A stretch of 34,387 nucleotides of DNA, from positions 1 to 34,387 of the forward strand of contig NEEC01000297.1 in NCBI GenBank assembly GCA_002189035.1, in the 5' to 3' direction. The translations under genes were made by a program, and so were the position numbers. The notes under the pieces were generated by a model that made no database searches, was not told the DNA's origin, and saw nothing but the letters and a program-made list of their open reading frames with translations. Positions 11,504 to 34,387 of the stretch are shown here, in pieces (the stretch's first letter is position 1; each line of letters starts with the position of its first letter). Origin of the DNA: Utricularia gibba (Eukaryota; Streptophyta; Magnoliopsida; Lamiales; Lentibulariaceae).

Positions 11504-11813
11504 TGTGGGGTGCACGTGACATCATAATTTAAACAAATGCATCATTTTTTTTCGATTTGCATCCAGTTGACCTCATGAGCCATACAGAATCGGGGTCAAG
11601 GACCAAGTTCCCAGCGAGACTGGCCGCCACAAAACGAGAAGCGGTTCCTTGAAAAACCATGTAGGCAGCCCCGAAAAAACCGAACGTTAATAAATACATC
11701 ACTTTATTTGCCGGGCTACAACTTACTTCGGGCAAAGCCTAAGCTGACCTTTTCCGTTCCAAGTGCCCCCCAAGACCGCCTCTCAAGTATAAAGTAAGTT
11801 GTTAAAAAAATCA
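11504..11813 (+). repeat. Chimeric monomer: A first half, B second half
   Basis: The first half is ordinary A, with GACATCATAATTT, CATACAGAATCGGGGTC and TTCCCAGCG. From about 11685 it is B-type, with CGTTAATAAAT, CCGGGCTACAACTTAC, GCCTAAGCTGACC and AAGTGCCCCCCAAGACC. The switch lies between CATGTAGGCAGCC and CGTTAAT, near the half-unit boundary. TTTATTTGCC inside the B half is A-type. Confidence 0.8.
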
Positions 11814-12126
11814 TGTGGGGTGCACGTGACATCATAATTTAAACAAATGCATCATTTTTTTTAATCGATTTGCATCCAGTTGACCTCATGAGCCATACAG
11901 AATCGGGGTCAAGGACCAAGTTCCCAGCGAGACTGGCCGCCACAAACGAGAAGCGGTTCCTTGAAAAACCATGTAGGCAGCCCCGAAAACGAACGATAAT
12001 AAATACATCACTTTATTTGCCGGACTACAACTAACTCTCGGTGCAAGCCAAACCTTACCTTTGTCCCGTTCCAGGTGCACCCAAAGACCGCCTGCTCAAG
12101 TATAAAGTAAGTTGTTGAAAAAATCA

Positions 12127-12437
12127 TGTGGGGTGCACGTGATATCGTAATTTAAACAAATGCATCATTGTATTCATCGATTTGCATCCTTTTGTCCTCA
12201 TGAGCCATAAAGAATCGGGGGGGACCAAGTTCCTAGCGAGACTGGCCGCCACAAAACGAGAAGCTGTTCCTTGAAAAACCATGTAGGCAACACCGAAAAC
12301 CGAACGTTAATAAATACATCACTTTCTTTGCCGGGCTACAACTTACTTTGGGCCAAGGCCTAAGCTGATCTTTTTCCGGTTCCAAGTGCCCCCCAAAACC
12401 GCCTCTCATGTATAAAGTATGTTGTTAAAAAAAATCA
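12127..12437 (+). repeat. B monomer with A-type octamer
   Basis: Has GTGATATCG, CATTGTATTCATCG, CATAAAGAATCGGGGGGG, CCTAGCGAG, GCAACACCG, CGTTAATAAAT and GGCCAAGGCCTAAGCTG, but reads CGATTTGCATCCTTTTG, keeping the ATTTGCAT octamer that left-hand B copies lack. Confidence 0.87.
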
Positions 12438-12744
12438 TGTGGGGTGCACGTGACATCGTAATTTAAACAAATGCATCATTTTTTTTATCGATTTGCATCC
12501 AGTTGACCTCATGAGCCATACAGAATGGGGTCAAGGACCAAGTTCCCAGCGAGACTGGCCGCCAAAAACGAGAAGCGGTTCCTTGAAAAACCATGTAGGC
12601 AGCCCCCGAAAACGAACGATAATAAATACATCACTTTATTTGCCGACTACAAACTCTCGGTGCAAGCCAAACATTACTTTGTCCCGTTCCAGGTGCACCC
12701 AAAGACCGCCTGCTCAAGTATAAAGTAAGTTGTTGAAAAAATCA

Positions 12745-13054
12745 TGTGGGGTGCACGTGACATCATAATTTAAACAAATGCATCATTTTTTTTATCGATT
12801 TGCATCCAGTTGACCTCATGAGCCATACAGAATCGGGTCAAGGACCAAGTTCCCAGCGAGACTGCCGCCACAAAACGAGAAGCGGTTCCTTGAAAAACCA
12901 TGTAGGCAGCCCCCGAAAACGAACGATAATAAATACATCACTTTATTTGCCGGACTACAACTAACTTCGGTGCAAGCCTAAGCTGACTTTTTGTCCGGTT
13001 CCAGTGCCCCCAAGACCGCCTGCTCAAGTATAAAGTAAGTTGTTAAAAAAATCA
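12745..13054 (+). repeat. A monomer with B-like 3' end
   Basis: Ordinary A up to CTAACTTCGGTGCAAG, then GCCTAAGCTGACTTTTTG, TCCGGTTCCAGTGCCCCC and the joint GTTGTTAAAAAAATC. The B-like tract of about 85 bases resembles the A2 copies of the higher-order repeat without their TCCTCTTCC marker. Confidence 0.75.
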
Positions 13055-15204
13055 TGTGGGGTGCACGTGACATCATAATTTAAACAAATGCATCATTTTT
13101 TTTAATCGATTTGCATCCAGTTGACCTCATGAGCCATACAGAATCGGGGTCAAGGACCAAGTTCCCAGCGAGACTGGCCGCCACAAAACGAGAAGGTTCC
13201 TTGAAAACCATGTAGGCAGCCCCGAAAACCGAACGATAATAAATACATCACTTTATTTGCCGGACTACAACTAACTCTCGGTGCAAGCCAAACTTACCTT
13301 TCCCGTTCCAGTGCACCCAAAGACCGCCTGCTCAAGTATAAAGTAAGTTGTTGAAAAAATCATGTGGGGTGCACGTGACATCATAATTTAAACAAATGCA
13401 TCATTTTTTTAATCGATTTGCATCCAGTTGACCTCATGAGCCATACAGAATCGGGGTCAAGGACCAAGTTCCCAGCGAGACTGGCCGCCACAAAACGAGA
13501 AGCGGTTCCTTGAAAAACCATGTAGGCAGCCCCGAAAACGAACGATAATAAATACATCACTTTATTTGCCGGACTACAACTAACTCTCGGTGCAAGCCAA
13601 CTTACTTTTGTCCGGTTCCAGTGCACCCAAGACCGCCTGCTCAAGTATAAAGTAAGTTGTTGAAAAATGTGGGGTGCACGTGACATCATAATTTAAACAA
13701 ATGCATCATTTTTTTTAATCGATTTGCATCCAGTTGACCTCATGAGCCATACAGAATCGGGGTCAAGGACCAAGTTCCCAGCGAGACTGGCCGCCACAAA
13801 ACGAGAAGCGGTTCCTTGAAAAACCATGTAGGCAGCCCCCGAAAACCGAACGATAATAAATACATCACTTTATTTGCCGGACTACAACTAACTCTCGGTG
13901 CAAGCCAAACATTTTTCCCGTTCGTGCACCCAAAGACCGCCTGCTCAAGTATAAAGTAAGTTGTTGAAAAAATCATGTGGGTGCACGTGACATATAATTT
14001 AAACAAATCATTTTTTTTAATCGATTTGCATCCAGTTGACCTCATGAGCCATACAGAATCGGGGTCAAGGACCAAGTTCCAGCGAGACTGGCCGCCACAA
14101 ACGAGAAGCGGTTCCTTGAAAAACCATGTAGGCAGCCGAAAACGAACGATAATAAATACATCACTTTATTTGCCGGACTACAACTAACTCTCGTGCAAGC
14201 CAAACTTACCTTTGTCCGTTCCAGGTGCACCCAAAGACCGCCTGCTCAAGTATAAAGTAAGTTGTTGAAAAATCATGTGGGGTGCACGTGACATCATAAT
14301 TTAAACAAATGCATCATTTTTTTTTCGATTTGCATCCAGTTGACCTCATGAGCCATACAGAATCGGGTCAAGGACCAAGTTCCCAGCGAGACTGGCCGCC
14401 ACAAAACGAGAAGCGGTTCCTTGAAAAACCATGTAGGCAGCCCCGAAAACCGAACGATAATAAATACATCACTTTATTTGCCGGACTACAACTAACTCTC
14501 GGTGCAAGCTTACCTTTGTCCCGTTCCAGGTGCACCCAACCGCCTGCTCAAGTATAAAGTAAGTTGTTGAAAAAATCATGTGGGGTGCACGTGACATCAT
14601 AATTAAACAAATGCATCATTTTTTTTAATCGATTTGCATCCAGTTGACCTCATGAGCCATACAGAATCGGGGTCAAGGACCAAGTTCCCAGCGAGACTGG
14701 CCGCCACAAAACGAGAAGCGGTTCCTTGAAAAACCATGTAGGCAGCCCCGAAAACCGAACGATAATAAATACATCACTTTATTTGCCGGACTACAACTAA
14801 CTCTCGGTGCAAGCCAAACCTTACTTTTGTCCGTTCCAGGTGCACCCAAAGACCGCCTGCTCAAGTATAAAGTAAGTTGTTGAAAAAATCATGTGGGGTG
14901 CACGTGACATCATAATTTAAACAAATGCATCATTTTTTTTAATCGATTTGCATCCAGTTGACCTCATGAGCCATACAGAATCGGGGTCAAGGACCAAGTT
15001 CCCAGCGAGACTGGCCGCCACAAAACGAGAAGCGGTTCCTTGAAAAACCATGTAGGCAGCCCCCGAAAACCGAACGATAATAAATACATCACTTTATTTG
15101 CCGGACTACAACTAACTCTCGTGCAAGCCAAACTTACCTTTGTCCGTTCCAGGTGCACCCAAAGACCGCCTGCTCAAGTATAAAGTAAGTTGTTGAAAAA
15201 ATCA

Positions 15205-15499
15205 TGTGGGGTGCACGTGACATCATAATTTAAAAAATGCATCATTTGATTTGCATCCTTTGACCTCATGAGCCATAAAGAATCGGGGGGACCAAGTTCC
15301 CAGCGAGACTGGCCGCCACAAAACGAGAAGCGTTCCTTGAAAAACCATGTAGGCAACCCGAAAACCGAACGTTAATAAATACATCACTTTATTTGCCGGG
15401 CTACAACTTACTTTGGGCCAAGGCCTAAGCTGACTTTTTCCGGTTCCAAGTGCCCCAAGACCGCCTCCTCAAGTATAAAGTAAGTTGTTAAAAAAATCA
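15205..15499 (+). repeat. B-like mixed monomer, 295 bases
   Basis: Reads CATCATTTGATTTGCATCC, TTTGACCTC, CATAAAGAATCGGGGGGACC, GCAACCCG, CGTTAATAAAT and GGCCAAGGCCTAAGCTGAC. GACATCA and TTCCCAGCG are A-type. Shortness comes mainly from loss of the poly-T and nearby bases. Confidence 0.76.
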
Positions 15500-16743
15500 T
15501 GTGGGGTGCACGTGACATCATAATTTAAACAAATGCATCATTTTTTTTAATCGATTTGCATCCAGTTGACCTCATGAGCCATACAGAATCGGGGTCAAGG
15601 ACCAAGTTCCCAGCGAGACTGGCCGCCACAAAACGAGAAGCGGTTCCTTGAAAAACCATGTAGGCAGCCCCGAAAACGAACGATAATAAATACATCACTT
15701 TATTTGCCGGACTACAACTAACTCTCGGTGCAAGCCAAACCTTACCTTTGTCCCGTTCCAGGTGCACCCAAAGACCGCCTGCTCAAGTATAAAGTAAGTT
15801 GTTGAAAAAATCATGTGGGGTGCACGTGACATCATAATTTAAACAAATGCATCATTTTTTTTATCGATTTGCATCCAGTTGACCTCATGAGCCATACAGA
15901 AATCGGGTCAAGGACCAAGTTCCCAGCGAGACTGGCCGCCACAAAACGAGAAGCGGTTCCTTGAAAAACCATGTAGGCAGCCCCGAAAACCGAACGATAA
16001 TAAATACATCACTTTATTTGCCGGACTACAACTAACTCTCGGTGCAAGCCAAACTTACCTTTGTCCCGTTCCAGGTGCACCCAAAGACCGCCTGCTCAAG
16101 TATAAAGTAAGTTGTTGAAAAAATCATGTGGGGTGCACGTGACATCATAATTTAAACAAATGCATCATTTTTTTTAATCGATTTGCATCCAGTTGACCTC
16201 ATGAGCCATACAGAATCGGGGTCAAGGACCAAGTTCCCAGCGAGACTGGCCACAGAAGCGGTTCCTTGAAAAACCATGTAGGCAGCCCCGAAAACCGAAC
16301 GATAATAAATACATCACTTTATTTGCCGGACTACAACTAACTCTCGGTGCAAGCAAACCTTACCTTTGTCCGTTCCAGGTGCACCCAAAGACCGCCTGCT
16401 CAAGTATAAAGTAAGTTGTTGAAAAAATCATGTGGGGTGCACGTGACATCATAATTTAAACAAATGCATCATTTTTTTAATCGATTTGCATCCAGTTGAC
16501 CTCATGAGCCATACAGAATCGGGGTCAAGGACCAAGTTCCCAGCGAGACTGGCCGCCACAAAACGAGAAGCGGTTCCTTGAAAAACCATGTAGGCAGCCC
16601 CCGAAAACGAACGATAATAAATACATCACTTTATTTGCCGGACTACAACTAACTCTCGGTGCAAGCCAAACCTTACCTTTGTCCCGTTCCAGTGCACCCA
16701 AAGACCGCCTGCTCAAGTATAAAGTAAGTTGTTGAAAAAATCA

Positions 16744-17053
16744 TGTGGGGTGCACGTGATATCGTAATTTAAACAAATGCATCATTGTATTCATCGATTT
16801 GCATCCTTTTGTCCTCATGAGCCATAAAGAATCGCGGGCCCGGACCAAGTTCCTAGCGAGACTGGCCGCCACAAAACGAGAAGCTGTTCCTTGAAAAACC
16901 ATGTAGGCAACACCGAAAACCGAACGTTAATAAATACATCACTTTCTTTGCCGGGCTACAACTTACTTTGGGCCAAGGCCTAAGCTGACTTTTTCCGTTC
17001 CAAGTGCCCCAAAGACCGCCTCCTCATGTATAAAGTATGTTGTTAAAAAATCA
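16744..17053 (+). repeat. B monomer with A-type octamer
   Basis: Full B set (GTGATATCG, GAATCGCGGGCCCGG, CCTAGCGAG, GCAACACCG, CGTTAATAAAT, CTTTCTTTGCC) with CATCGATTTGCATCC as in the copy at 12127. These two form a B sub-class distinct from the left-hand B copies. Confidence 0.87.
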
Positions 17054-17368
17054 TGTGGGGTGCACGTGACATCGTAATTTAAACAAATGCATCATTTTTT
17101 TTAATCGATTTGCATCCAGTTGACCTCATGAGCCATACAGAATCGGGGTCAAGGACCAAGTTCCCAGCGAGACTGGCCGCCACAAAACGAGAAGCGGTTC
17201 CTTGAAAAACCATGTAGGCAGCCCCCGAAAACGAACGATAATAAATACATCACTTTATTTGCCGGACTACAACTAACTCTCGGTGCAAGCCAAACATTAC
17301 CTTTGTCCCGTTCCAGGTGCACCCAAAGACCGCCTGCTCAAGTATAAAGTAAGTTGTTGAAAAAATCA

Positions 17369-17676
17369 TGTGGGGTGCACGTGACATCATAATTTAAACA
17401 AATGCATCATTTTTTTTAATCGATTTGCATCCAGTTGACCTCATGAGCCATACAGAATCGGGTCAAGGACCAAGTTCCCAGCGAGACTGGCCGCCACAAA
17501 ACGAGAAGCGGTTCCTTGAAAAACATGTAGGCAGCCCCCGAAAACCGAACGATAATAAATACATTTTTTTTGCCGGACTACAACTAACTCTCGGTGCAAG
17601 CCTAAGCTTACTTTGTCCGGTTCCAGGTGCCCCCAAGACCGCCTGCTCAAGTATAAAGTAAGTTGTTAAAAAATCA
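17369..17676 (+). repeat. A monomer with B-like 3' end and local deletion
   Basis: Ordinary A with AATACATTTTTTTTGCC replacing the usual ACATCACTTTATTTGCC at about 17561. It then switches to GCCTAAGCTTACTTTG, TCCGGTTCCAGGTGCCCCC and the joint GTTGTTAAAAAATC. The local change resembles the A3 marker ACATCTTTTTATT. Confidence 0.7.
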
Positions 17677-20482
17677 TGTGGGGTGCACGTGACATCATAA
17701 TTTAAACAAATGCATCATTTTTTTTAATCGATTTGCATCCAGTTGACCTCATGAGCCATACAGAATCGGGGTCAAGGACCAAGTTCCCAGCGAGACTGGC
17801 CGCCACAAAACGAGAAGCGGTTCCTTGAAAAACCATGTAGGCAGCCCCCGAAAACGAACGATAATAAATACATCACTTTATTTGCCGGACTACAACTAAC
17901 TCTCGGTGCAAGCCAAACTTACCTTTGTCCCGTTCCAGGTGCACCCAAAGACCGCCTGCTCAAGTATAAAGTAAGTTGTTGAAAAAATCATGTGGGGTGC
18001 ACGTGACATCATAATTTAAACAAATGCATCATTTTTTTTAATCGATTTGCATCCAGTTGACCTCATGAGCCATACAGAATCGGGGTCAAGGACCAAGTTC
18101 CCAGCGAGACTGGCCGCCACAAAACGAGAAGCGGTTCCTTGAAAAACCATGTAGGCAGCCCCCGAAAACCGAACGATAATAAATACATCACTTTATTTGC
18201 CGGACTACAACTAACTCTCGGTGCAAGCCAAATTACCTTTGTCCCGTTCCAGTGCACCCAAAGACCGCCTGCTCAAGTATAAAGTAAGTTGTTGAAAAAA
18301 TCATGTGGGGTGCACGTGACATCATAATTTAAACAAATGCATCATTTTTTTTAATCGATTTGCATCCAGTTGACCTCATGAGCCATACAGAATCGGGGTC
18401 AAGGACCAAGTTCCCAGCGAGACTGGCCGCCACAAAACGAGAAGCGGTTCCTTGAAAAACCATGTAGGCAGCCCCCGAAAACCGAACGATAATAAATACA
18501 TCACTTTATTTGCCGGACTACAACTAACTCTCGGTGCAAGCCAAACTTACTTTGTCCGGTTCCACCCCCAAGACCGCCTGCTCAAGTATAAAGTAAGTTG
18601 TTGAAAAAATCATGTGGGGTGCACGTGACATCATAATTTAAACAAATGCATCATTTTTTTTAATCGATTTGCATCCAGTTGACCTCATGAGCCATACAGA
18701 ATCGGGTCAAGGACCAAGTTCCCAGCGAGACTGGCCGCCACAAAACGAGAAGCGGTTCCTTGAAAAACCATGTAGGCAGCCCCGAAAACGAACGATAATA
18801 AATACATCACTTTATTTGCCGGACTACAACTAACTCTCGGTGCAAGCCAAGCTTACTTTTGTCCGTTCCAGTGCCCCCAAGACCGCCTGCTCAAGTATAA
18901 AGTAAGTTGTTGAAAAAAATGTGGGTGCACGTGACATCATAATTTAAACAAATGCATCATTTTTTTTAATCGATTTGCATCCAGTTGACCTCATGAGCCA
19001 TACAGAATCGGGGTCAAGGACCAAGTTCCCAGCGAGACTGGCCGCCACAAAACGAGAAGCGGTTCCTGAAAAACCATGTAGGCAGCCCCGAAAACCGAAC
19101 GATAATAAATACATCACTTTATTTGCCGACTACAACTAACTCTCGGTGCAAGCCAAACTTACCTTTGTCCCGTTCCAGGTGCACCCAAAGACCGCCTGCT
19201 CAAGTATAAAGTAAGTTGTTGAAAAAATCATGTGGGGTGCACGTGACATCATAATTTAAACAAATGCATCATTTTTTTTAATCGATTTGCATCCAGTTGA
19301 CCTCATGAGCCATACAGAATCGGGGTCAAGGACCAAGTTCCAGCGAGACTGGCCGCCACAAAACGAGAAGCGGTTCCTTGAAAAACCATGTAGGCAGCCC
19401 CCGAAAACGAACGATAATAAATACATCACTTTATTTGCCGGACTACAACTAACTCTCGGGCAAGCCAAACTTACCTTTGTCCCGTTCCAGGTGCACCCAA
19501 AGACCGCCTGCTCAAGTATAAAGTAAGTTGTTGAAAAAATCATGTGGGGTGCACGTGACATCATAATTTAAACAAATGCATCATTTTTTTTAATCGATTT
19601 GCATCCAGTTGACCTCATGAGCCATACAGAATCGGGGTCAAGGACCAAGTTCCCAGCGAGACTGGCCGCCACAAAACGAGAAGCGGTTCCTTGAAAAACC
19701 ATGTAGGCAGCCCCCGAAAACCGAACGATAATAAATACATCACTTTATTTGCCGGACTACAACTAACTCTCGGTGCAAGCCAAACATTACCTTTGTCCGT
19801 TCCAGGTGCACCCAAAGACCGCCTGCTCAAGTATAAAGTAAGTTGTTGAAAAAATCATGTGGGGTGCACGTGACATCATAATTTAAACAAATGCATCATT
19901 TTTTTTAATCGATTTGCATCCAGTTGACCTCATGAGCCATACAGAATCGGGGTCAAGGACCAAGTTCCCAGCGAGACTGGCCGCCACAAAACGAGAAGCG
20001 GTTCCTTGAAAAACCATGTAGGCAGCCCCCGAAAACGAACGATAATAAATACATCACTTTATTTGCCGGACTACAACTAACTCTCGGTGCAAGCCAACTT
20101 ACCTTTGTCCGTTCCAGGTGCACCCAAAGACCGCCTGCTCAAGTATAAAGTAAGTTGTTGAAAAAATCATGTGGGGTGCACGTGACATCATAATTTAAAC
20201 AAATGCATCATTTTTTTTAATCGATTTGCATCCAGTTGACCTCATGAGCCATACAGAATCGGGGTCAAGGACCAAGTTCCAGCGAGACTGGCCGCCACAA
20301 AACGAGAAGCGGTTCCTTGAAAAACCATGTAGGCAGCCCCGAAAACCGAACGATAATAAATACATCACTTTATTTGCCGGACTACAACTAACTCTCGTGC
20401 AAGCCAAACCTTACCTTTGTCCCGTTCCAGGTGCACCCAAAGACCGCCTGCTCAAGTATAAAGTAAGTTGTTGAAAAAATCA

Positions 20483-20773
20483 TGTGGGGTGCACGTGATA
20501 TCAATTTAAACAAATGCATCATTTATTCATCGATTTGCTCCTTTTGTCCTCATGAGCCATAAAGAATCGGGGGACCAAGTTCCTAGCGAGACTGGCCGCC
20601 ACAAAACGAGAAGCTGTTCCTTGAAAAAACATGTAGGCAACCCGAAAACCGAACGTTAATAAATACATCACTTTCTTTGCCGGGCTACAACTACTTTGGG
20701 CAAGCCTAAGCTGATCTTTTTCCGTTCCAAGTGCCCCAAGACCGCCTCGTATAAAGTAGTTGTTAAAAAATCA
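20483..20773 (+). repeat. B monomer, shortest spacing outside the disrupted zone (291 bases)
   Basis: Has GTGATATCAATTT, TATTCATCGATTTGCTCC (octamer broken by a lost base), CATAAAGAATCGGGGGACC, CCTAGCGAG, CGTTAATAAAT and CTTTCTTTGCC. The 3' end is deleted to CGCCTCGTATAAAGTAG. It is the last full B copy in the window. Confidence 0.84.
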
Positions 20774-22021
20774 TGTGGGGTGCACGTGACATCGTAATTT
20801 AAACAAATGCATCATTTTTTTTATTCGATTTGCATCCAGTTGACCTCATGAGCCATACAGAATCGGGGTCAAGGACCAAGTTCCCAGCGAGACTGGCCGC
20901 CACAAAACGAGAAGCGGTTCCTTGAAAAACCATGTAGGCAGCCCCCGAAAACGAACGATAATAAATACATCACTTTATTTGCCGGACTACAACTAACTCT
21001 CGGTGCAAGCCAAACATTACCTTTGTCCCGTTCCAGGTGCACCCAAAGACCGCCTGCTCAAGTATAAAGTAAGTTGTTGAAAAAATCATGTGGGGTGCAC
21101 GTGACATCATAATTTAAACAAATGCATCATTTTTTTAATCGATTTGCATCCAGTTGACCTCATGAGCCATACAGAATCGGGTCAAGGACCAAGTTCCCGC
21201 GAGACTGGCCGCCACAAAACGAGAAGCGGTTCCTTGAAAAACCATGTAGGCAGCCCCCGAAAACCGAACGATAATAAATACATCACTTTATTTGCCGGAC
21301 TACAACTAACTCTCGGTGCAAGCCAAACTTACCTTTGTCCCGTTCCAGGTGCACCCAAAGACCGCCTGCTCAAGTATAAAGTAAGTTGTTGAAAAAATCA
21401 TGTGGGGTGCACGTGACATCATAATTTAAACAAATGCATCATTTTTTTTAATCGATTTGCATCCAGTTGACCTCATGAGCCATACAGAATCGGGGTCAAG
21501 GACCAAGTTCCCAGCGAGACTGGCCGCCACAAAACGAGAAGCGGTTCCTTGAAAAACCATGTAGGCAGCCCCCGAAAACCGAACGATAATAAATACATCA
21601 CTTTATTTGCCGGACTACAACTAACTCTCGGTGCAAGCCAAACCTTACCTTTGTCCCGTTCCAGGTGCACCCAAAGACCGCCTGCTCAAGTATAAAGTAA
21701 GTTGTTGAAAAAATCATGTGGGGTGCACGTGACATCATAATTTAAACAAATGCATCATTTTTTTAATCGATTTGCATCCAGTTGACCATGAGCCATACAG
21801 AATCGGGTCAAGGACCAAGTTCCCAGCGAGACTGGCCGCCACAAAACGAGAAGCGGTTCCTTGAAAAACCATGTAGGCAGCCCCGAAAACGAACGATAAT
21901 AAATACATCACTTTATTTGCCGGACTACAACTAACTCTCGTGCAAGCCAACCTTACCTTTGTCCCGTTCCAGTGCACCAAAACCGCCTGCTCAAGTATAA
22001 AGTAAGTTGTTGAAAAAATCA

Positions 22022-22313
22022 TGTGGGGTGCACGTGATATCGTAATTTAAACAAATGCATCATTTTTTCGATTTGCATCCTTTGACCTCATGAGCCATAA
22101 AGAATCGGGGCAAGGACCAAGTTCCCAGCGAGACTGGCCGCCACAAAACGAGAAGCGTTTCCTTGAAAAACCATGTAGGCAGCCCGAAAACCGAACGATA
22201 ATAAATACATCACTTTATTTGCCGGACTACAACTACCCAAGCCAAGTACCTTTTCCGTTCCAGTGCCCCAAAGACCGCCTCCTCAAGTATAAAGTAAGTT
22301 GTTAAAAAAATCA
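22022..22313 (+). repeat. Last B-like monomer (mostly A), 292 bases
   Basis: Retains GTGATATCG, TTTGACCTC, CATAAAGAATCGGGG and GTTGTTAAAAAAATC from B. Its second half is A-type (CGATAATAAAT, CCGGACTAC) with a deletion at CTACCCAAGCCAAGTACC. No B-type copy occurs after it. Confidence 0.75.
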
Positions 22314-23532
22314 TGTGGGGTGCACGTGACATCGTAATTTAAAAATGCATCATTTTTTTTATTCGATTTGCATCCAGTTGACCTCATGAGCCATACAGAA
22401 TCGGGTCAAGGACCAAGTTCCCAGCGAGACTGGCCGCCACAAAACGAGAAGCGGTTCCTTGAAAAACCATGTAGGCCGAAAACGAACGATAATAAATACA
22501 TCACTTTATTTGCCGGACTACAACTAACTCTCGGTGCAAGCCAAACTTACCTTTGTCCCGTTCCAGGTGCACCCAAAGACCGCCTGCTCAAGTATAAAGT
22601 AAGTTGTTGAAAAAATCATGTGGGGTGCACGTGACATCATAATTTAAACAAATGCATCATTTTTTTTAATCGATTTGCATCCAGTTGACCTCATGAGCCA
22701 TACAGAATCGGGTCAAGGACCAAGTTCCAGCGAGACTGGCCGCCAAAAACGAGAAGCGGTTCCTTGAAAAACCATGTAGGCAGCCCCGAAAACCGAACGA
22801 TAATAAATACATCACTTTATTTGCCGGACTACAACTAACTCTCGGTGCAAGCCAAGCTACTTTGTCCGGTTCCATGCCCCAAAGACGCCTGCTCAAGTAT
22901 AAAGTAAGTTGTTGAAAAAATCATGTGGGTGCACGTGACATCGTAATTTAAACAATGCATCATTTTTTAATCGATTTGCATCCAGTTGACCTCATGAGCC
23001 ATACAGAATCGGGGTCAAGGACCAAGTTCCCAGCGAGACTGGCCGCCACAAAACGAGAAGCGTTCCTTGAAAAACCATGTAGGCAGCCCCGAAAACCGAA
23101 CGATAATAAATACATCACTTTATTTGCCGGACTACAACTAACTCTCGTGCAAGCCAACATTTTTGTCCCGTTCCAGGTGCACCCAAAGACCGCCTGCTCA
23201 AGTATAAAGTAAGTTGTTGAAAAAATCATGTGGGGTGCACGTGACATCATAATTTAAACAAATGCATCATTTTTTTTAATCGATTTGCATCCAGTTGACC
23301 TCATGAGCCATACAGAATCGGGGTCAAGGACCAAGTTCCCAGCGAGACTGGCCGCCACAAAACGAGAAGCGGTTCCTTGAAAAACCATGTAGGCAGCCCC
23401 GAAAACCGAACGATAATAAATACATCACTTTATTTGCCGGACTACAACTAACTCTCGGTGCAAGCCAACTTACTTTGTCCCGTTCCAGCCCCAAGACCGC
23501 CTGCTCAAGTATAAAGTAAGTTGTTAAAAAAA

Positions 23533-23613
23533 CATCACTTTATTTGCCGGCATCTTGACATGAGCCATACAGAATCGGGGTCTTCGGTGCAAAAACGCCA
23601 AAAACATTAGGCC
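23533..23613. repeat. Patchwork junction 1
   Basis: After GTTGTTAAAAAAA the sequence jumps to CATCACTTTATTTGCCGG (second-half sequence), then CATCTTGACATGAGCC and ATACAGAATCGGGGTC (first-half), then TTCGGTGCAAAAACGCC and AAAAACATTAGGCC, before normal second-half sequence resumes at TAATAAATACATCAC. The short linking bases (for example AAAACG, TTAGGCC) match no standard position. Confidence 0.75.
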
Positions 23614-23970
23614 TAATAAATACATCACTTTATTTGCCGGACTACAACTAACTCTCGGTGCAAGCCAAACATTACCTTTGTCCCGTTCCAGGTGCACCCA
23701 AAGACCGCCTGCTCAAGTATAAAGTAAGTTGTTGAAAAAATCATGTGGGGTGCACGTGACATCATAATTTAAACAAATGCATCATTTTTTTAATCGATTT
23801 GCATCCAGTTGACCTCATGAGCCATACAGAATCGGGGTCAAGGACCAAGTTCCCAGCGAGACTGGCCGCCACAAAACGAGAAGCGGTTCCTTGAAAAACC
23901 ATGTAGGCAGCCCCGAAAACGAACGATAATAAATACATCACTTTATTTGCCGGACTACAACTAACTCTCG

Positions 23971-23999
23971 CCCAAACATACAGAATCGTATAAAGGTCA
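23971..23999. repeat. Patchwork junction 2
   Basis: CTAACTCTCG is followed by CCCAAACATACAGAATCG and TATAAAGGTC, then the next monomer's CATGTGGGG. About 60 bases of the normal 3' end are missing. The ATACAGAATCG piece belongs to the first half-unit. The monomer is 256 bases long. Confidence 0.75.
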
Positions 24000-24180
24000 T
24001 GTGGGGTGCACGTGACATCATAATTTAAACAAATGCATCATTTTTTTTAATCGATTTGCATCCAGTTGACCTCATGAGCCATACAGAATCGGGTCAGGAC
24101 CAAGTTCCCGCGAGACTGGCCGCCACAAAACGAGAAGCGGTTCCTTGAAAAACCATGTAGGCAGCCCCGAAAACCGAACG

Positions 24181-24196
24181 TAACCGAACGATTAAT
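24181..24196. repeat. Patchwork junction 3
   Basis: AAAACCGAACG is followed by TAACCGAACGATTAA, a local repeat of AACCGAACG, and then directly by TGCACCCAAAGACC. The interval from ATAATAAAT to CCAGG is absent. The monomer is 247 bases long. Confidence 0.75.
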
Positions 24197-24296
24197 GCAC
24201 CCAAAGACCGCCTGCTCAAGTATAAAGTAAGTTGTTGAAAAAATCATGTGGGGTGCACGTGACATCATAATTTAAACAAATGCATCATTTTTTTTA

Positions 24297-24403
24297 TCGG
24301 ACCAGTTGACCTCAACTACACTCTCGGAGACTGGCAAGAGAAGCGGTTCCTTGAAAAACCATGTAGGCAGCTTTACATCACTTTATTTGTACCCGTTTAC
24401 CAG
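24297..24403. repeat. Patchwork junction 4 (most reduced monomer, 209 bases)
   Basis: Contains in-order fragments with several internal losses: ATCGGACCAGTTGACC, TCAACTACACTCTCGG, AGACTGGCAAGAGAAGCGG, the intact CTTGAAAAACCATGTAGG joint, then GCAGCTTTACATCAC, TTTATTTGTACCC and GTTTACCAGGTGCACC. It mixes second-half words (CAACTACACTCTCGG) into the first half. Confidence 0.75.
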
Positions 24404-25089
24404 GTGCACCCAAAGACCGCCTGCTCAAGTATAAAGTAAGTTGTTGAAAAAATCATGTGGGGTGCACGTGACATCATAATTTAAACAAATGCATCATTTT
24501 TTTTAATCGATTTGCATCCAGTTGACCTCATGAGCCATACAGAATCGGGGTCAAGGACCAAGTTCCCAGCGAGACTGGCCGCCACAAAACGAGAAGCGGT
24601 TCCTTGAAAAACCATGTAGGCAGCCCCCGAAAACCGAACGATAATAAATACATCACTTTATTTGCCGGACTACAACTAACTCTCGTGCAAGCCAACATTA
24701 CCTTTGTCCCGTTCCAAGTGCACCCAAAGACCGCCTGCTCAAGTATAAAGTAAGTTGTTGAAAAAATCATGTGGGGTGCACGTGACATCATAATTTAAAC
24801 AAATGCATCATTTTTTTTTAATCGATTTGCATCCAGTTGACCTCATGAGCCATACAGAATCGGGTCAAGGACCAAGTTCCCAGCGAGACTGGCCGCCACA
24901 AAACGAGAAGCGGTTCCTTGAAAAACCATGTAGGCAGCCCCGAAAACCGAACGATAATAAATACATCACTTTTTGCCGGACTACAACTAACTCTCGGTGC
25001 AAGCCAAACATTACCTTTGTCCCGTTCCAGGTGCACCCAAAGACATGCCTGCTCAAGTATAAAGTAAGTTGTTGAAAAAATCATGTGGG

Positions 25090-25190
25090 CCCCGAAAACC
25101 GAACGATGCACTACAACTAACTCTCGGTGAAGCATCCTTTGTCCCGTTCCAGGTGCACCCATGCTCAAGTAAACAACGTGACATGCATCA
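25090..25190. repeat. Patchwork junction 5
   Basis: CATGTGGG joins directly to CCCCGAAAACCGAACGAT, skipping most of the first half-unit. Pieces CTACAACTAACTCTCGG, TGAAGCATCC, TTTGTCCCGTTCCAGG, TGCACCCATGCTCAAG, TAAACAACGTGACATGCATC follow in order, with internal deletions. Normal monomer sequence resumes at the poly-T near 25190. Confidence 0.75.
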
Positions 25191-28100
25191 TTTTTTTTAA
25201 TCGATTTGCATCCAGTTGACCTCATGAGCCATACAGAATCGGGTCAAGGACCAAGTTCCCAGCGAGACTGGCCGCCACAAAACGAGAAGCGGTTCCTTGA
25301 AAAACCATGTAGGCAGCCCCCGAAAACCGAACGATAATAAATACATCACTTTATTTGCCGGACTACAACTAACTCTCGGTGCAAGCCAAACATTACCTTT
25401 GTCCCGTTCCAGGTGCACCCAAAGACCGCCTGCTCAAGTATAAAGTAAGTTGTTGAAAAAATCATGTGGGGTGCACGTGACATCATAATTTAAACAAATG
25501 CATCATTTTTTTTAATCGATTTGCATCCAGTTGACCTCATGAGCCATACAGAATCGGGGTCAAGGACCAAGTTCCCAGCGAGACTGGCCGCCACAAAACG
25601 AGAAGCGGTTCCTTGAAAAACCATGTAGGCAGCCCCCGAAAACCGAACGATAATAAATACATCACTTTATTTGCCGGACTACAACTAACTCTCGGTGCAA
25701 GCCAAACATTACCTTTGTCCCGTTCCAGGTGCACCCAAAGACCGCCTGCTCAAGTATAAAGTAAGTTGTTGAAAAAAAATCATGTGGGGTGCACGTGACA
25801 TCATAATTTAAACAAATGCATCATTTTTTTAATCGATTTGCATCCAGTTGACCTCATGAGCCATACAGAATCGGGGTCAAGGACCAAGTTCCAGCGAGAC
25901 TGGCCGCCACAAAACGAGAAGCGGTTCCTTGAAAAACCATGTAGGCAGCCCCCGAAAACCGAACGATAATAAATACATCACTTTATTTGCCGGACTACAA
26001 CTAACTCTCGGTGCAAGCCAAACATTACCTTTGTCCCGTTCCAGGTGCACCCAAAGACCGCCTGCTCAAGTATAAAGTAAGTTGTTGAAAAAATCATGTG
26101 GGGTGCACGTGACATCATAATTTAAACAAATGCATCATTTTTTTTAATCGATTTGCATCCAGTTGACCTCATGAGCCATACAGAATCGGGTCAAGGACCA
26201 AGTTCCCAGCGAGACTGGCCGCCACAAAACGAGAAGCGGTTCCTTGAAAAACCATGTAGGCAGCCCCCGAAAACCGAACGATAATAAATACATCACTTTA
26301 TTTGCCGGACTACAACTAACTCTCGGTGCAAGCCAAACATTACCTTTGTCCCGTTCCAGGTGCACCCAAAGACCGCCTGCTCAAGTATAAAGTAAGTTGT
26401 TGAAAAAATCATGTGGGGTGCACGTGACATCATAATTTAAACAAATGCATCATTTTTTTTAATCGATTTGCATCCAGTTGACCTCATGAGCCATACAGAA
26501 TCGGGTCAAGGACCAAGTTCCCAGCGAGACTGGCCGCCACAAAAAGAAGCGGTTCCTTGAAAAACCATGTAGGCCCCCGAAAACCGAACGATAATAAATA
26601 CATCACTTTATTTGCCGGACTACAACTAACTCTCGGTGCAAGCCAACTTACCTTTGTCCCGTTCCAGGTGCACCCAAAGACCGCCTGCTCAAGTATAAAG
26701 TAAGTTGTTGAAAAAATCATGTGGGGTGCACGTGACATCATAATTTAAACAAATGCATCATTTTTTTTAATCGATTTGCATCCAGTTGACCTCATGAGCC
26801 ATACAGAATCGGGGTCAAGGACCAAGTTCCCAGCGAGACTGGCCGCCACAAAACGAGAAGCGGTTCCTTGAAAAACCATGTAGGCAGCCCCCGAAAACCG
26901 AACGATAATAAATACATCACTTTATTTGCCGGACTACAACTAACTCTCGGTGCAAGCCAAACATTACCTTTGTCCCGTTCCAGGTGCACCCAAAGACCGC
27001 CTGCTCAAGTATAAAGTAAGTTGTTGAAAAAATCATGTGGGGTGCACGTGACATCATAATTTAAAAAATGCATCATTTTTTTTAATCGATTTGCATCCAG
27101 TTGACCTCATGAGCCATACAGAATCGGGTCAACAAGTTCCCAGCGAGACTGGCCGCCACAAAACGAGAAGCGGTTCCTTGAAAAACCATGTAGGCAGCCC
27201 CCGAAAACCGAACGATAATAAATACATCACTTTATTTGCCGGACTACAACTAACTCTCGGTGCAAGCAAACCTTACCTTTGTCCGTTCCAGGTGCACCCA
27301 AAGACCGCCTGCTCAAGTATAAAGTAAGTTGTTGAAAAAATCATGTGGGGTGCACGTGACATCATAATTTAAAAAATGCATCATTTTTTTTAATCGATTT
27401 GCATCCAGTTGACCTCATGAGCCATACAGAATCGGGGTCAAGGACCAAGTTCCCAGCGAGACTGGCCGCCACAAAACGAGAAGCGGTTCCTTGAAAAACC
27501 ATGTAGGCAGCCCCAAAACGAACGATAATAAATACATCACTTTATTTGCCGGACTACAACTAACTCTCGGTGCAAGCCAAACTTACCTTTGTCCCGTTCC
27601 AGGTGCACCCAAAGACCGCCTGCTCAAGTATAAAGTAAGTTGTTGAAAAAATCATGTGGGGTGCACGTGACATCATAATTTAAACAAATGCATCATTTTT
27701 TTTAATCGATTTGCATCCAGTTGACCTCATGAGCCATACAGAATCGGGGTCAAGGACCAAGTTCCCAGCGAGACTGGCCGCCACAAAACGAGAAGCGGTT
27801 CCTTGAAAAACCATGTAGGCAGCCCCCGAAAACCGAACGATAATAAATACATCACTTTATTTGCCGGACTACAACTAACTCTCGGTGCAGCCAAACATTA
27901 CCTTGTCCCGTTCCAGGTGCACCCAAAGACCGCCTGCTCAAGTATAAAGTAAGTTGTTGAAAAAATCATGTGGGGTGCACGTGACATCATAATTTAAAAA
28001 TGCATCATTTTTTTTAATCGATTTGCATCCAGTTGACCTCATGAGCCATACAGAATCGGGTCAAGGACCAAGTTCCCAGCGAGACTGGCCGCCACAAAAC

Positions 28101-31100
28101 GAGAAGCGGTTCCTTGAAAAACCATGTAGGCAGCCCCGAAAACCGAACGATAATAAATACATCACTTTATTTGCCGGACTACAACTAACTCTCGGTGCAA
28201 GCCAAACTTACCTTTGTCCCGTTCCAGGTGCACCCAAAGACCGCCTGCTCAAGTATAAAGTAAGTTGTTGAAAAAATCATGTGGGGTGCACGTGACATCA
28301 TAATTTAAACAAATGCATCATTTTTTTTTAATCGATTTGCATCCAGTTGACCTCATGAGCCATACAGAATCGGGTCAAGGACCAAGTTCCAGCGAGACTG
28401 GCCGCCACAAAACGAGAAGCGGTTCCTTGAAAAACCATGTAGGCACCCCGAAAACCGAACGATAATAAATACATCACTTTATTTGCCGGACTACAACTAA
28501 CTCTCGGTGCAAGCCAACATTACCTTTGTCCCGTTCCAGGTGCACCCAAAAGACCGCCTGCTCAAGTATAAAGTAAGTTGTTGAAAAAATCATGTGGGTG
28601 CACGTGACATCATAATTTAAACAAATGCATCATTTTTTTTAATCGATTTGCATCCAGTTGACCTCATGAGCCATACAGAATCGGGTCAAGGACCAAGTTC
28701 CCAGCGAGACTGGCCGCCACAAAACGAGAAGCGGTTCCTTGAAAAACCATGTAGGCAGCCCCCGAAAACCGAACGATAATAAATACATCACTTTATTTGC
28801 CGGACTACAACTAACTCTCGGTGCAAGCCAAACATTACCTTTGTCCGTTCCAGGTGCACCCAAAGACCGCCTGCTCAAGTATAAAGTAAGTTGTTGAAAA
28901 AATCATGTGGGGTGCACGTGACATCATAATTTAAACAAATGCATCATTTTTTTTAATCGATTTGCATCCAGTTGACCTCATGAGCCATACAGAATCGGGG
29001 TCAAGGACCAAGTTCCCAGCGAGACTGGCCGCCACAAAACGAGAAGCGGTTCCTTGAAAAACCATGTAGGCAGCCCCCGAAAACCGAACGATAATAAATA
29101 CATCACTTTATTTGCCGGACTACAACTAACTCTCGGTGCAAGCCAAACTTACCTTTGTCCCGTTCCAGGTGCACCCAAAGACCGCCTGCTCAAGTATAAA
29201 GTAAGTTGTTGAAAAAATCATGTGGGGTGCACGTGACATCATAATTTAAAAATGCATCATTTTTTTTAATCGATTTGCATCCAGTTGACCTCATGAGCCC
29301 AGAATCGGTCAAGGACCAAGTTCCCAGCGAGACTGGCCGCCACAAAACGAGAAGCGGTTCCTTGAAAAACCATGTAGGCAGCCCCCGAAAACGAACGATA
29401 ATAAATACATCACTTTATTTGCCGGACTACAACTAACTCTCGGTGCAAGCCAAACATTACCTTTGTCCCGTTCCAGGTGCACCCAAAGACCGCCTGCTCA
29501 AGTATAAAGTAAGTTGTTGAAAAAATCATGTGGGGTGCACGTGACATCATAATTTAAAAAATGCATCATTTTTTTTAATCGATTTGCATCCAGTTGACCT
29601 CATGAGCCATACAGAATCGGGGTCAAGGACCAAGTTCCCAGCGAGACTGGCCGCCACAAAACGAGAAGCGGTTCCTTGAAAAACCATGTAGGCAGCCCCC
29701 GAAAACCGAACGATAATAAATACATCACTTTATTTGCCGGACTACAACTAACTCTCGGTGCAAGCCAAACCTTACCTTTGTCCCGTTCCAGGTGCACCCA
29801 AAGACCGCCTGCTCAAGTATAAAGTAAGTTGTTGAAAAAATCATGTGGGGTGCACGTGACATCATAATTTAAACAAATGCATCATTTTTTTTAATCGATT
29901 TGCATCCAGTTGACCTCATGAGCCATACAGAATCGGGTCAAGGACCAAGTTCCCAGCGAGACTGGCCGCCACAAAACGAGAAGCGGTTCCTTGAAAAAAC
30001 CATGTAGGCAGCCCCCGAAAAACCGAACGATAATAAATACATCACTTTATTTGCCGGACTACAACTAACTCTCGGTGCAAGCCAAACATTACCTTTGTCC
30101 CGTTCCAGGTGCACCCAAAGACCGCCTGCTCAAGTATAAAGTAAGTTGTTGAAAAAATCATGTGGGGTGCACGTGACATCATAATTTAAACAAATGCATC
30201 ATTTTTTTTAATCGATTTGCATCCAGTTGACCTCATGAGCCATACAGAATCGGGGCAAGGACCAAGTTCCAGCGAGACTGGCCGCCACAAAACGAGAAGC
30301 TGTTCCTTGAAAAACCATGTAGGCAGCCCCGAAAACCGAACGATAATAAATACATCACTTTATTTGCCGGACTACAACTAACTCTCTCGGTGCAAGCCAA
30401 ACATTACCTTTGTCCCGTTCCAGGTGCACCCAAAGACCGCCTGCTCAAGTATAAAGTAAGTTGTTGAAAAAATCATGTGGGGTGCACGTGACATCATAAT
30501 TTAAACAAATGCATCATTTTTTTTAATCGATTTGCATCCAGTTGACCTCATGAGCCATACAGAATCGGGTCAAGGACCAAGTTCCCAGCGAGACTGGCCG
30601 CCACAAAACGAGAAGCGGTTCCTTGAAAAACCATGTAGGCAGCCCCCGAAAACCGAACGATAATAAATACATCACTTTATTTGCCGGACTACAACTAACT
30701 CTCGGTGCAAGCCAAACATTACCTTTGTCCCGTTCCAGGTGCACCCAAAGACCGCCTGCTCAAGTATAAAGTAAGTTGTTGAAAAAATCATGTGGGGTGC
30801 ACGTGACATCATAATTTAAACAAATGCATCATTTTTTTTAATCGATTTGCATCCAGTTGACCTCATGAGCCATACAGAATCGGGTCAAGGACCAAGTTCC
30901 CAGCGAGACTGGCCGCCACAAAACGAGAAGGTTCCTTGAAAAACCATGTAGGCAGCCCCGAAAACCGAACGATAATAAATACATCACTTTATTTGCCGGA
31001 CTACAACTAACTCTCGGTGCAAGCCAAACTTTACCTTTGTCCCGTTCCAGGTGCACCCAAAGACCGCCTGCTCAAGTATAAAGTAAGTTGTTGAAAAAAT

Positions 31101-33311
31101 CATGTGGGTGCACGTGACATCATAATTTAAACAAATGCATCATTTTTTTTAATCGATTTGCATCCAGTTGACCTCATGAGCCATACAGAATCGGGTCAAG
31201 GACCAAGTTCCCAGCGAGACTGGCCGCCACAAAACGAGAAGCGGTTCCTTGAAAAACCATGTAGGCAGCCCCCGAAAACCGAACGATAATAAATACATCA
31301 CTTTATTTGCCGGACTACAACTAACTCTCGGTGCAAGCCAAACATTACCTTTGTCCCGTTCCAGGTGCACCCAAAGACCGCCTGCTCAAGTATAAAGTAA
31401 GTTGTTGAAAAAATCATGTGGGGTGCACGTGACATCATAATTTAAAAATGCATCATTTTTTTTAATCGATTTGCATCCAGTTGACCTCATGAGCCATACA
31501 GAATCGGGTCAAGGACCAAGTTCCCAGCGAGACTGGCCGCCACAAAACGAGAAGCGGTTCCTTGAAAAACCATGTAGGCAGCCCCCGAAAACCGAACGAT
31601 AATAAATACATCACTTTATTTGCCGGACTACAACTAACTCTCGGTGCAAGCCAAACATTACCTTTGTCCCGTTCCAGGTGCACCCAAAGACCGCCTGCTC
31701 AAGTATAAAGTAAGTTGTTGAAAAAATCATGTGGGGTGCACGTGACATCATAATTTAAACAAATGCATCATTTTTTTTTAATCGATTTGCATCCAGTTGA
31801 CCTCATGAGCCATACAGAATCGGGTCAAGGACCAAGTTCCCAGCGAGACTGGCCGCCACAAAACGAGAAGCGGTTCCTTGAAAAACCATGTAGGCAGCCC
31901 CCGAAAACCGAACGATAATAAATACATCACTTTATTTGCCGGACTACAACTAACTCTCGGTGCAAGCCAAACATTACCTTTGTCCCGTTCCAGGTGCACC
32001 CAAAGACCGCCTGCTCAAGTATAAAGTAAGTTGTTGAAAAAATCATGTGGGTGCACGTGACATCATAATTTAAACAAATGCATCATTTTTTTTAATCGAT
32101 TTGCATCCAGTTGACCTCATGAGCCATACAGAATCGGGGTCAAGGACCAAGTTCCCAGCGAGACTGGCCGCCACAAAACGAGAAGCGGTTCCTTGAAAAA
32201 CCATGTAGGCAGCCCCCGAAAACCGAACGATAATAAATACATCACTTTATTTGCCGGACTACAACTAACTCTCGGTGCAAGCCAACATTACCTTTGTCCC
32301 GTTCCAGGTGCACCCAAAGACCGCCTGCTCAAGTATAAAGTAAGTTGTTGAAAAAATCATGTGGGGTGCACGTGACATCATAATTTAAACAAATGCATCA
32401 TTTTTTTTAATCGATTTGCATCCAGTTGACCTCATGAGCCATACAGAATCGGGTCAAGGACCAAGTTCCCAGCGAGACTGGCCGCCACAAAACGAGAAGC
32501 GGTTCCTTGAAAAACCATGTAGGCACCCCGAAAACCGAACGATAATAAATACATCACTTTATTTGCCGGACTACAACTAACTCTCGGTGCAAGCCAAACA
32601 TTACCTTTGTCCCGTTCCAGGTGCACCCAAAGACCGCCTGCTCAAGTATAAAGTAAGTTGTTGAAAAAATCATGTGGGGTGCACGTGACATCATAATTTA
32701 AACAAATGCATCATTTTTTTTAATCGATTTGCATCCAGTTGACCTCATGAGCCATACAGAATCGGGGTCAAGGACCAAGTTCCCAGCGAGACTGGCCGCC
32801 ACAAAACGAGAAGCGGTTCCTTGAAAAACCATGTAGGCAGCCCCCGAAAACCGAACGATAATAAATACATCACTTTATTTGCCGGACTACAACTAACTCT
32901 CGGTGCAAGCCAACATTACCTTTGTCCCGTTCCAGGTGCACCCAAAGACCGCCTGCTCAAGTATAAAGTAAGTTGTTGAAAAAATCATGTGGGGTGCACG
33001 TGACATCATAATTTAAACAAATGCATCATTTTTTTTAATCGATTTGCATCCAGTTGACCTCATGAGCCATACAGAATCGGGTCAAGGACCAAGTTCCCAG
33101 CGAGACTGGCCGCCACAAAACGAGAAGCGGTTCCTTGAAAAACCATGTAGGCAGCCCCCGAAAACCGAACGATAATAAATACATCACTTTATTTGCCGGA
33201 CTACAACTAACTCTCGGTGCAAGCCAAACATTACCTTTGTCCCGTTCCAGGTGCACCCAAAGACCGCCTGCTCAAGTATAAAGTAAGTTGTTGAAAAAAT
33301 CATGTGGGGTG

Positions 33312-33319
33312 CACGTGAC
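33312..33319 (-). other. GTCACGTG motif, one per standard monomer (example)
   Basis: The plus strand reads CACGTGAC, so the minus strand reads GTCACGTG. This fits the general E-box/G-box core CACGTG and also the yeast CDEI consensus RTCACRTG bound by bHLH proteins. Standard A monomers keep it, B monomers have CACGTGAT (ATCACGTG, still a match), and the seven A1 copies in the left 9.4 kb lose it. Whether any protein binds it here is not known; an 8-base match is weak evidence by itself. Confidence 0.45.
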
Positions 33320-33343
33320 ATCATAATTTAAACAAATGCATCA

Positions 33344-33350
33344 TTTTTTT
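33344..33350 (+). other. Poly-T tract inside monomer (example)
   Basis: A run of 7-9 T follows GCATCA in A monomers (seven here, eight in most copies). The run is broken in B copies, which read GCATCATTGTATTCATTG. With the A6 run at the monomer boundary and the A5 run at the half-unit boundary it forms a set of A/T tracts that may affect DNA bending or nucleosome placement. The number of Ts is also a likely site of sequencing error. Confidence 0.6.
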
Positions 33351-33355
33351 AATCG

Positions 33356-33363
33356 ATTTGCAT
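33356..33363 (+). other. ATTTGCAT octamer, one per standard monomer (example)
   Basis: The perfect octamer ATTTGCAT, the known site of POU-domain factors in animals, lies in CGATTTGCATCC directly after the poly-T tract. B copies at 967, 2517, 3446, 4683, 5919, 7170 and 8724 have ATTTGTAT instead; later B copies at 12127 and 16744 have the intact octamer. Binding is unproven. Confidence 0.4.
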
Positions 33364-33396
33364 CCAGTTGACCTCATGAGCCATACAGAATCGGGG

Positions 33397-33453
33397 TCAA
33401 GGACCAAGTTCCCAGCGAGACTGGCCGCCACAAAACGAGAAGCGGTTCCTTGA
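33397..33453 (+). repeat. Imperfect inverted repeat TCAAGGACC / GGTTCCTTGA
   Basis: The left arm is 33397..33405 and the right arm 33444..33453, separated by 38 bases. They pair as a nine-base stem with a one-base bulge. The arms are preserved in most A monomers. B copies reading CGGGCCCGGACC in place of the left arm cannot form the same stem. Could form a hairpin in a transcript or a cruciform; neither is shown. Confidence 0.4.
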
Positions 33454-33460
33454 AAAACCA

Positions 33461-33617
33461 TGTAGGCAGCCCCCGAAAACCGAACGATAATAAATACATC
33501 ACTTTATTTGCCGGACTACAACTAACTCTCGGTGCAAGCCAAACATTACCTTTGTCCCGTTCCAGGTGCACCCAAAGACCGCCTGCTCAAGTATAAAGTA
33601 AGTTGTTGAAAAAATCA
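33461..33617 (+). repeat. Second half-unit (~157 bases) of the dimeric monomer
   Basis: It starts at CATG|TAGGC and ends where GTTGAAAAAATCA meets the next marker. Both half-units are preceded by a similar joint: TTGAAAAACCATG here and TTGAAAAAATCATG at the monomer boundary. In B monomers the same half differs by CAACACCG, CGTTAATAAAT, CTTTCTTTGCC and a longer C-rich 3' end, so most A/B divergence outside the poly-T area lies here. Confidence 0.82.
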
Positions 33618-34246
33618 TGTGGGGTGCACGTGACATCATAATTTAAACAAATGCATCATTTTTTTTAATCGATTTGCATCCAGTTGACCTCATGAGCCAT
33701 ACAGAATCGGGGTCAAGGACCAAGTTCCCAGCGAGACTGGCCGCCACAAAACGAGAAGCGGTTCCTTGAAAAACCATGTAGGCAGCCCCCGAAAACCGAA
33801 CGATAATAAATACATCACTTTATTTGCCGGACTACAACTAACTCTCGGTGCAAGCCAAACATTACCTTTGTCCCGTTCCAGGTGCACCCAAAGACCGCCT
33901 GCTCAAGTATAAAGTAAGTTGTTGAAAAAATCATGTGGGGTGCACGTGACATCATAATTTAAAAAATGCATCATTTTTTTTAATCGATTTGCATCCAGTT
34001 GACCTCATGAGCCATACAGAATCGGGTCAAGGACCAAGTTCCCAGCGAGACTGGCCGCCACAAAACGAGAAGCGGTTCCTTGAAAAACCATGTAGGCAGC
34101 CCCCGAAAACGAACGATAATAAATACATCACTTTATTTGCCGGACTACAACTAACTCTCGGTGCAAGCCAAACCTTACCTTTGTCCCGTTCCAGGTGCAC
34201 CCAAAGACCGCCTGCTCAAGTATAAAGTAAGTTGTTGAAAAAATCA

Positions 34247-34387
34247 TGTGGGGTGCACGTGACATCATAATTTAAACAAATGCATCATTTTTTTAATCGA
34301 TTTGCATCCAGTTGACCTCATGAGCCATACAGAATCGGGGTCAAGGACCAAGTTCCCAGCGAGACTGGCCGCCACAAAACGAGAAGC
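34247..34387 (+). repeat. Partial satellite monomer cut by the right window edge
   Basis: A standard A monomer begins at 34247 with TGTGGGGTGCACGTGAC and is cut after AAAACGAGAAGC, close to the end of the first half-unit. The array continues to the right. Confidence 0.95.

Follow-up and report, generated by a model that had tools for sequence, protein, structure and literature searches.

The tandem repeat that fills this locus raises the question of whether its 315-base unit is one sequence of single origin or the product of an old doubling. The window analysed here is the whole 34,387-base stretch, which is the entire contig C54 (C54:1-34387) of the Utricularia gibba assembly, and all of it (1..34387, forward strand) is a tandem array of a 315-base A-B heterodimer. 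TRF returned a single array at 1-34387 with a period of 313, 110.6 copies, 90% matches and 4% indels, and 226 half-units cover a fraction of 1.00 of the window. The left part of the array (39..11194, forward strand) is more heterogeneous, neighbouring units being 93-94% alike and the best lags, of 4-5 and 8-9 units, being weak, and the right part (22312..34243, forward strand) is homogenised, with units 99.3-99.9% alike and a near-uniform extreme right end (99.8-99.9%). Substitution variants shared between units number 54 in the first 36 units of the window versus 3 in the last 37, while deletions per unit rise from left to right (6.5, 7.3 and 9.8), and base-calling error was therefore rejected as the main cause of this gradient. 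At 34 kb, consisting of repeat alone and rich in small indels (6.5-9.8 deletions per unit), the contig could be an assembly artefact or foreign DNA, but this is highly improbable, as the same satellite family is met in at least 60 contigs and forms the end of a 3.7-Mb contig, C213, that has histone-family matches and starts with a plant telomere; the joint presence of these matches, the telomere and the satellite on C213 led us to reject foreign DNA. What we take to be histone H3, with plant-like neighbouring frames, was recognised in this genome, and plant-type telomeres were also observed. No Rfam family reached its gathering score in the four sources searched.

The initial annotation had proposed that the 315-base monomer is an ancient dimer of a ~157-base, nucleosome-sized unit, with half-units starting at 33303 and 33461. 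Both starts were placed 2 bases too high: half-unit A occupies 33301..33458 (forward strand; 158 bases here, 159 in the consensus) and begins with CATGTGGGG at 33301, half-unit B occupies 33459..33615 (forward strand; 157 bases) and begins with CATGTAGGC at 33459, and the following CATGTGGGG lies at 33616. Measured from these joints, the proposed lengths of 158 and 157 bases are correct, as is the presence of TTGAAAAA upstream of both joints, separated from CATG by one or two bases. The paired landmarks CAAATGCATCAT/TAAATACATCAC and AGCCATACAG/AGCCAAACAT do fall at equal offsets in the two halves; these offsets are +32 and +78 from CATG, and the values of +30 and +76 given for them apply solely to the shifted start. 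The core of half A, CAAATGCATCAT (33333..33344, forward strand), lies in the best-conserved stretch common to the A and B halves of three subfamilies, and its homologous counterpart in half B is TAAATACATCAC (33491..33502, forward strand). A gap-free alignment credited with 73 identities in 140 positions contains exactly 73 when counted from the true CATG and 71 when counted from 33303.

Circular self-comparison of the 315-mer gave a peak of 40% identity at lag 157, against a mean of 25.6% (sd 2.9%) over lags 1-157. A window consensus was built from 101 of the 108 CATG-to-CATG units, the 7 units outside 290-325 bases having been dropped, and its halves (A, 159 bases; B, 157 bases) share 86 identities over 160 columns of a global alignment. 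The global A-B score of 6.0 compares with means of -33.7 for base shuffles (maximum -12, n=1000, z 6.5) and -35.3 for dinucleotide shuffles (maximum -15, n=1000, z 6.7), and the observed score was attained in 0 of these 2,000 shuffles (1,000 of each kind). The best lag, 158 (0.386), likewise exceeds the best-of-all-lags maxima of 300 base shuffles (0.358) and 300 dinucleotide shuffles (0.367). The local A-B score of 54 stands against shuffle maxima of 46 (base) and 55 (dinucleotide; z 6.6), and because the dinucleotide control equalled or passed it at least once in 1,000 shuffles, the local test taken alone is weaker. A half-unit alignment falling inside the range of shuffled controls had been named at the outset as the result that would speak against a dimer; the global and lag tests place the alignment outside that range, and the local dinucleotide test places it at the extreme of the range. 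Within the single halves, the best internal lag of A (23) was attained by 231 of 300 shuffles, and that of B (99) by 3 of 300, with an overlap of just 58 bases; neither is taken as an internal repeat.

Two further, diverged subfamilies occur in the same genome, at the contig ends of C213 and C402, and are 66-75% like the window type. Half consensuses were built for 11 arrays from 604 of 607 half-units (3 overlapping ones were removed), matches with less than 90% model coverage or running off a piece being excluded. Five of the 11 array consensuses (C90, C8, C7, C213, C402) entered a joint half alignment and a consensus tree, and three arrays (C90, C213, C402) were used for the consensus, reversal and core tests; C10, C131, C135, C314 and the window contig C54 appear to be near-copies of C90, and C25 appears to be one of C7. 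In the joint alignment, identity between subfamilies is 66-75% for A-A and 68-76% for B-B, and A-B identity is 49-58%, with 54% for the C90 halves and 58% for the C402-type halves, which are the closest. The within-array A-B comparison gave z values of 6.6 (C90), 6.1 (C8), 6.5 (C7), 7.7 (C213) and 9.7 (C402), and 0 of 1,000 base shuffles attained the observed score in each of the five arrays. The tree sets the A consensuses opposite the B consensuses with an ultrafast bootstrap of 100, the branch between A and B being the longest (0.47), and the 96 single halves taken from six pieces separate into equal sets of 48 A and 48 B.

In the three-subfamily alignment, A equals B in 44 of the 58 columns that are invariant within both halves, and in 41 of the 98 other columns (C90 halves). 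Since A groups with A and B with B across subfamilies, and A and B agree in these invariant columns, the doubling predates the subfamilies. The A/B signal is strongest in the subfamilies' consensus: a 2-of-3 consensus gives 88 A-B identities in 140 positions (columns without a majority omitted), with z 11.3 relative to base shuffles. At sites that distinguish A from B and have changed in another subfamily, the base of the opposite half appears more often than in slid controls in all ten comparisons (rates of 0.41-0.68 versus 0.28-0.36), as common descent of both halves predicts and chance resemblance does not; the ten comparisons overlap and are not independent, five of them reach p<0.05, and the four with C90, the window type, as reference give p 0.11-0.23. 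Half consensus lengths across the subfamilies are 153-159 bases. The dimer is ancient, as the initial annotation held, in the sense of a doubling older than the subfamily split, each subfamily having the same alternation and near-equal half lengths, and the common origin of its two parts is supported by the shuffles and by the diverged subfamilies.

From sequence comparison, then, the 315-base unit almost certainly joins two homologous halves of ~157 bases, A and B, into a heterodimer. The idea that the halves resemble each other by chance, or through a low-complexity bias shared by A-rich joints and poly-T within a single-origin 315-base sequence, could draw on the half identity of just 52% noted at first and on the dinucleotide local control, but it is rejected as very improbable after the subfamily results, given that none of the 2,000 global and 0 of 600 best-lag shuffles attained the observed values, that the A/B signal returns in each subfamily, and that A-B agreement is concentrated in the columns invariant within halves.

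The arrangement of the halves bears on how the array has grown. Across 20 pieces, adjacent halves comprised 347 AB, 341 BA, 5 BB and 2 AA pairs, so that half-register neighbours account for 7 of 695 pairs; neighbours 20 bases or more apart were not counted. Pairs of B starts that match CATGTAGGCANCC and lie half a unit apart number 14 genome-wide, in a search to which the C402 type, which lacks this start, is invisible; in the window, 77 such start pairs stand at full spacing and 0 at half spacing. The same genome-wide search by B-B half spacing, with this exact start form, found no monomeric 157-base array. The rarity of half-register neighbours among the adjacent pairs and genome-wide supports the proposal that the dimer became the unit of amplification. 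With halves that are homologous above shuffles, that alternate, and that appear to be amplified in full-dimer steps, the satellite can be placed in the fused-dimer class.

We propose that a ~157-base ancestral unit gave rise, most likely by tandem duplication, to a head-to-tail A-B heterodimer, whose halves would then have drifted to ~49-58% identity. The diverged halves may have become too unlike for half-register recombination, and unequal exchange or break-induced copying would from then on have proceeded in full ~313-base dimer steps; the scarcity of half-register neighbours speaks for this course. As the pieces read show, variants of the dimer were later amplified separately, yielding the subfamilies and higher-order repeats that are 2 or 7 dimers long, and one branch led to a 2.33-kb unit carrying foldback-like DNA. 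On some chromosomes the arrays would most likely make up (peri)centromeric chromatin, each half taking about one nucleosome. Exchange in dimer register is very likely as the mode of amplification, and duplication of a ~157-base unit followed by divergence is the probable start of the series. In a competing account, which we regard as unlikely, A and B are homologous but were fused: two already diverged repeats met by recombination and were co-amplified. The A-B branch, as the longest in the tree, and the lack of an array with near-equal halves among the pieces read would agree with such a fusion, but simple duplication takes fewer steps, and the 58% identity of the C402-type halves is consistent with gradual divergence. 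The whole chain of duplication, divergence, dimer-register amplification and (peri)centromeric packaging is held to be likely and is not put higher because a fusion would exclude its duplication step.

Higher-order structure was examined in at most the first 40 units of each piece. Units two apart are 0.994 alike in the C7 piece (versus 0.890 for neighbours) and 0.998 alike in the C25 piece (versus 0.894), and units seven apart are 0.993 alike in the C8 piece (versus 0.914-0.926 at other lags). In some pieces, then, homogenisation has locally produced higher-order repeats, built of two dimers on C7 and C25 and of seven on C8. No higher-order period was seen in the pieces from C314 and C90, all lags exceeding 0.99; no strong lag was found in the C10 and C213 pieces, where it is weak or absent, and in the left part of the window it is weak. 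A composite tandem unit of ~2,334 bases (2.33 kb) occurs on C403 (L059:91-2421) and at the end of C402 (L052, L041), and contains three A-B dimers, the last incomplete, together with ~1.44 kb of inverted-repeat-rich DNA. On C402 the composite was seen from 2,620,008 to the contig end, and it is absent from two stretches read before 2,602,500. The ~1.44 kb part is foldback-like, as if a foldback element had landed in the satellite and had then been co-amplified with it.

The assembly holds 100.09 Mb in 516 contigs, in which the exact core patterns matched 12,094 times for A and 10,576 times for B; of the ~110 units of the window they recover 87 and 102, respectively. Counting one 313-base unit per A core suggests that the satellite makes up at least ~3.8 of the 100 Mb. 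The large array on C213, a contig of 3.70 Mb, starts at 3,486,161 and was sampled over ~218 kb, all six further places read between that start and the contig end being satellite, and the opposite end, the contig start, carries telomere repeats. A Ty1/copia-type element (L060:1371-5876) adjoins the array start on this contig, its long reading frame split in two.

Sixteen large contigs were examined for telomere and satellite, with 0.6-2 kb read per end. Telomere repeats lie at both ends of C3 and C4, at the start alone of C1, C2, C213, C244 and C451 (degenerate on C451), at the end alone of C142, C321, C375 and C413, and at neither end of C98 (the start of which reads N), C402, C409, C414 and C505. 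Satellite lies at an end without telomere repeats on C213 and C402 and, as a remnant, on C414, and for the nine large contigs with one telomere it occupies the other end in one (0.6-2 kb read). No satellite was found at telomere-bearing contig ends over the 0.6-1.5 kb read. At the start of C414 the short satellite remnant (L026:1-124) is followed by a retrotransposon gag frame (L031:226-1260). Taken in contig order, the A and B core matches begin at C7, and C1-C6 thus seem to be without an exact match, although exact patterns may miss diverged copies. The lengths of C1 (8,500,000), C2 (6,192,500), C409 (2,492,500) and C505 (3,452,500 bases) are exact multiples of 2,500, and the ends of C1 and C2 lack a telomere; together with C409 and C505, these contigs look as if they had been cut.

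These positions allow a chromosomal role for the satellite to be weighed. The available parts of PMC8333044 describe a U. gibba assembly with 18 contigs >1 Mb, four of them putatively whole chromosomes, and putative U. gibba centromeres have been described, in the text available, as being without satellites. The two-telomere contigs seem to agree with that description, and the genome as a whole disagrees with it. The satellite has a trait expected of centromeric satellites, namely abundant long tandem arrays of a nucleosome-scale unit, and its presence appears to differ between contigs, with C213 ending in it and the two-telomere contigs C3 and C4 having no exact core match. A role in (peri)centromeric chromatin of some chromosomes is, on sequence grounds, more probable than not. 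That the satellite is instead non-centromeric heterochromatin, knob-like or interstitial, which would be compatible with a dimer origin, is a less probable account. It can point to C3 and C4, which have telomeres at both ends and no core match, and from which it follows that the satellite is perhaps not needed on every chromosome; against it stand the large array at the non-telomeric end of C213, a contig that starts with a telomere, the satellite-free telomere-bearing ends, the at least 12,094 A cores, and the dimer-based higher-order structure. Exons that are presumably CENH3-like lie at C375:2691900-2694600 (L067) on the minus strand, with the segments RPGTVALREIRRYQKS, AAPFIRLV and DFELARRIGG.

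The description of each half as nucleosome-sized stands as a statement of length; WW periodicity near 10 bases was not found, the values of all six half consensuses lying within those of base shuffles. One nucleosome per half is plausible from length and gains no support from the WW periodicity. Returning to the (peri)centromeric reading, a bolder extension of it, put forward tentatively, is that U. gibba has independently built a plant centromere system resembling that of alpha satellite, in which satellite and satellite-free centromeres coexist and compete in a 100-Mb genome. Such a system would consist of the A/B heterodimer, three or more diverged families that seem to occupy different chromosomes, and dimer-based higher-order repeats of 2 and 7 units. 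The picture of U. gibba as a model minimal genome is amended by satellites that lie on numerous small contigs and on a 3.7-Mb contig, at its end. The two-telomere contigs seem satellite-free, and the coexistence of satellite and satellite-free centromeres is now directly testable.

Among the known repeats that come close is Gn7c161 of Genlisea nigrocaulis, a 161-bp tandem repeat that the accessible text of PMC4542322 reports as centromere-associated; like the present satellite it belongs to a member of the Lentibulariaceae, the family of Utricularia, and its unit length is near-identical to that of our halves. Of the three conserved 8-mers of A and B that score highest, one, ATGCATCA, is present in its forward primer as given in that text, and any of the three appears in 125 of 20,000 shuffled primer pairs. 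The best local matches of the two primers to the satellite are within chance (65 of 500 and 93 of 500 shuffles), and both fall on one strand, which is impossible for a primer pair. The resemblance to Gn7c161, as compared by these two primers, may serve as a lead and is not put forward as homology. Primers were also sought in the available parts of PMC8333044, and none were found there. Among plants, the available text of PMC4053949 further describes an AB-dimer in sorghum and higher-order centromere repeats in switchgrass, which share with our satellite the alternation of variants and the higher-order organisation; by that account sorghum A and B differ by SNPs, whereas the present halves are about half different and their dimer is the building block of further higher-order repeats. 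No described 315-bp or U. gibba satellite matching this repeat was found in the portions of the literature available. Satellites with a doubled unit are a kind already known; the present one appears undescribed in the literature searched, as do the three subfamilies and the higher-order repeats it forms.

The best-known case in which a nucleosome-length unit dimerised and the dimer then served to build higher-order repeats is primate alpha satellite. The CENP-B box has the sequence TTCGNNNNANNCGGG; an exact copy was found 0 times in 67 loci, and the window holds 1 match with one mismatch versus 6.55 expected. In the accessible part of Melters et al. (2013; PMC4053949), the 343-bp alpha-satellite repeat of New World monkeys has, as here, a unit about twice the nucleosome length, weakly related halves and a dominant dimer, and a 171-bp monomeric relative exists in other primates; the likeness is one of architecture, and no sequence relation is claimed. 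In human alpha satellite, as covered in the available text of Talbert and Henikoff (2022; PMC8997354), the A/B (n/B) dimers of suprachromosomal families SF1 and SF2 and their higher-order repeats share with our satellite two half-types in alternation, the presence of several diverged families, the assembly of dimers into longer higher-order repeats, and uniform stretches that adjoin more diverged copies. Unlike human alpha satellite, the present repeat is a plant sequence with no exact CENP-B box, and its subfamily differences are seen between contigs. That a plant satellite has deeply diverged halves, three subfamilies, and both 2-mer and 7-mer higher-order repeats suggests that this route is general and that a CENP-B box is not needed for it.
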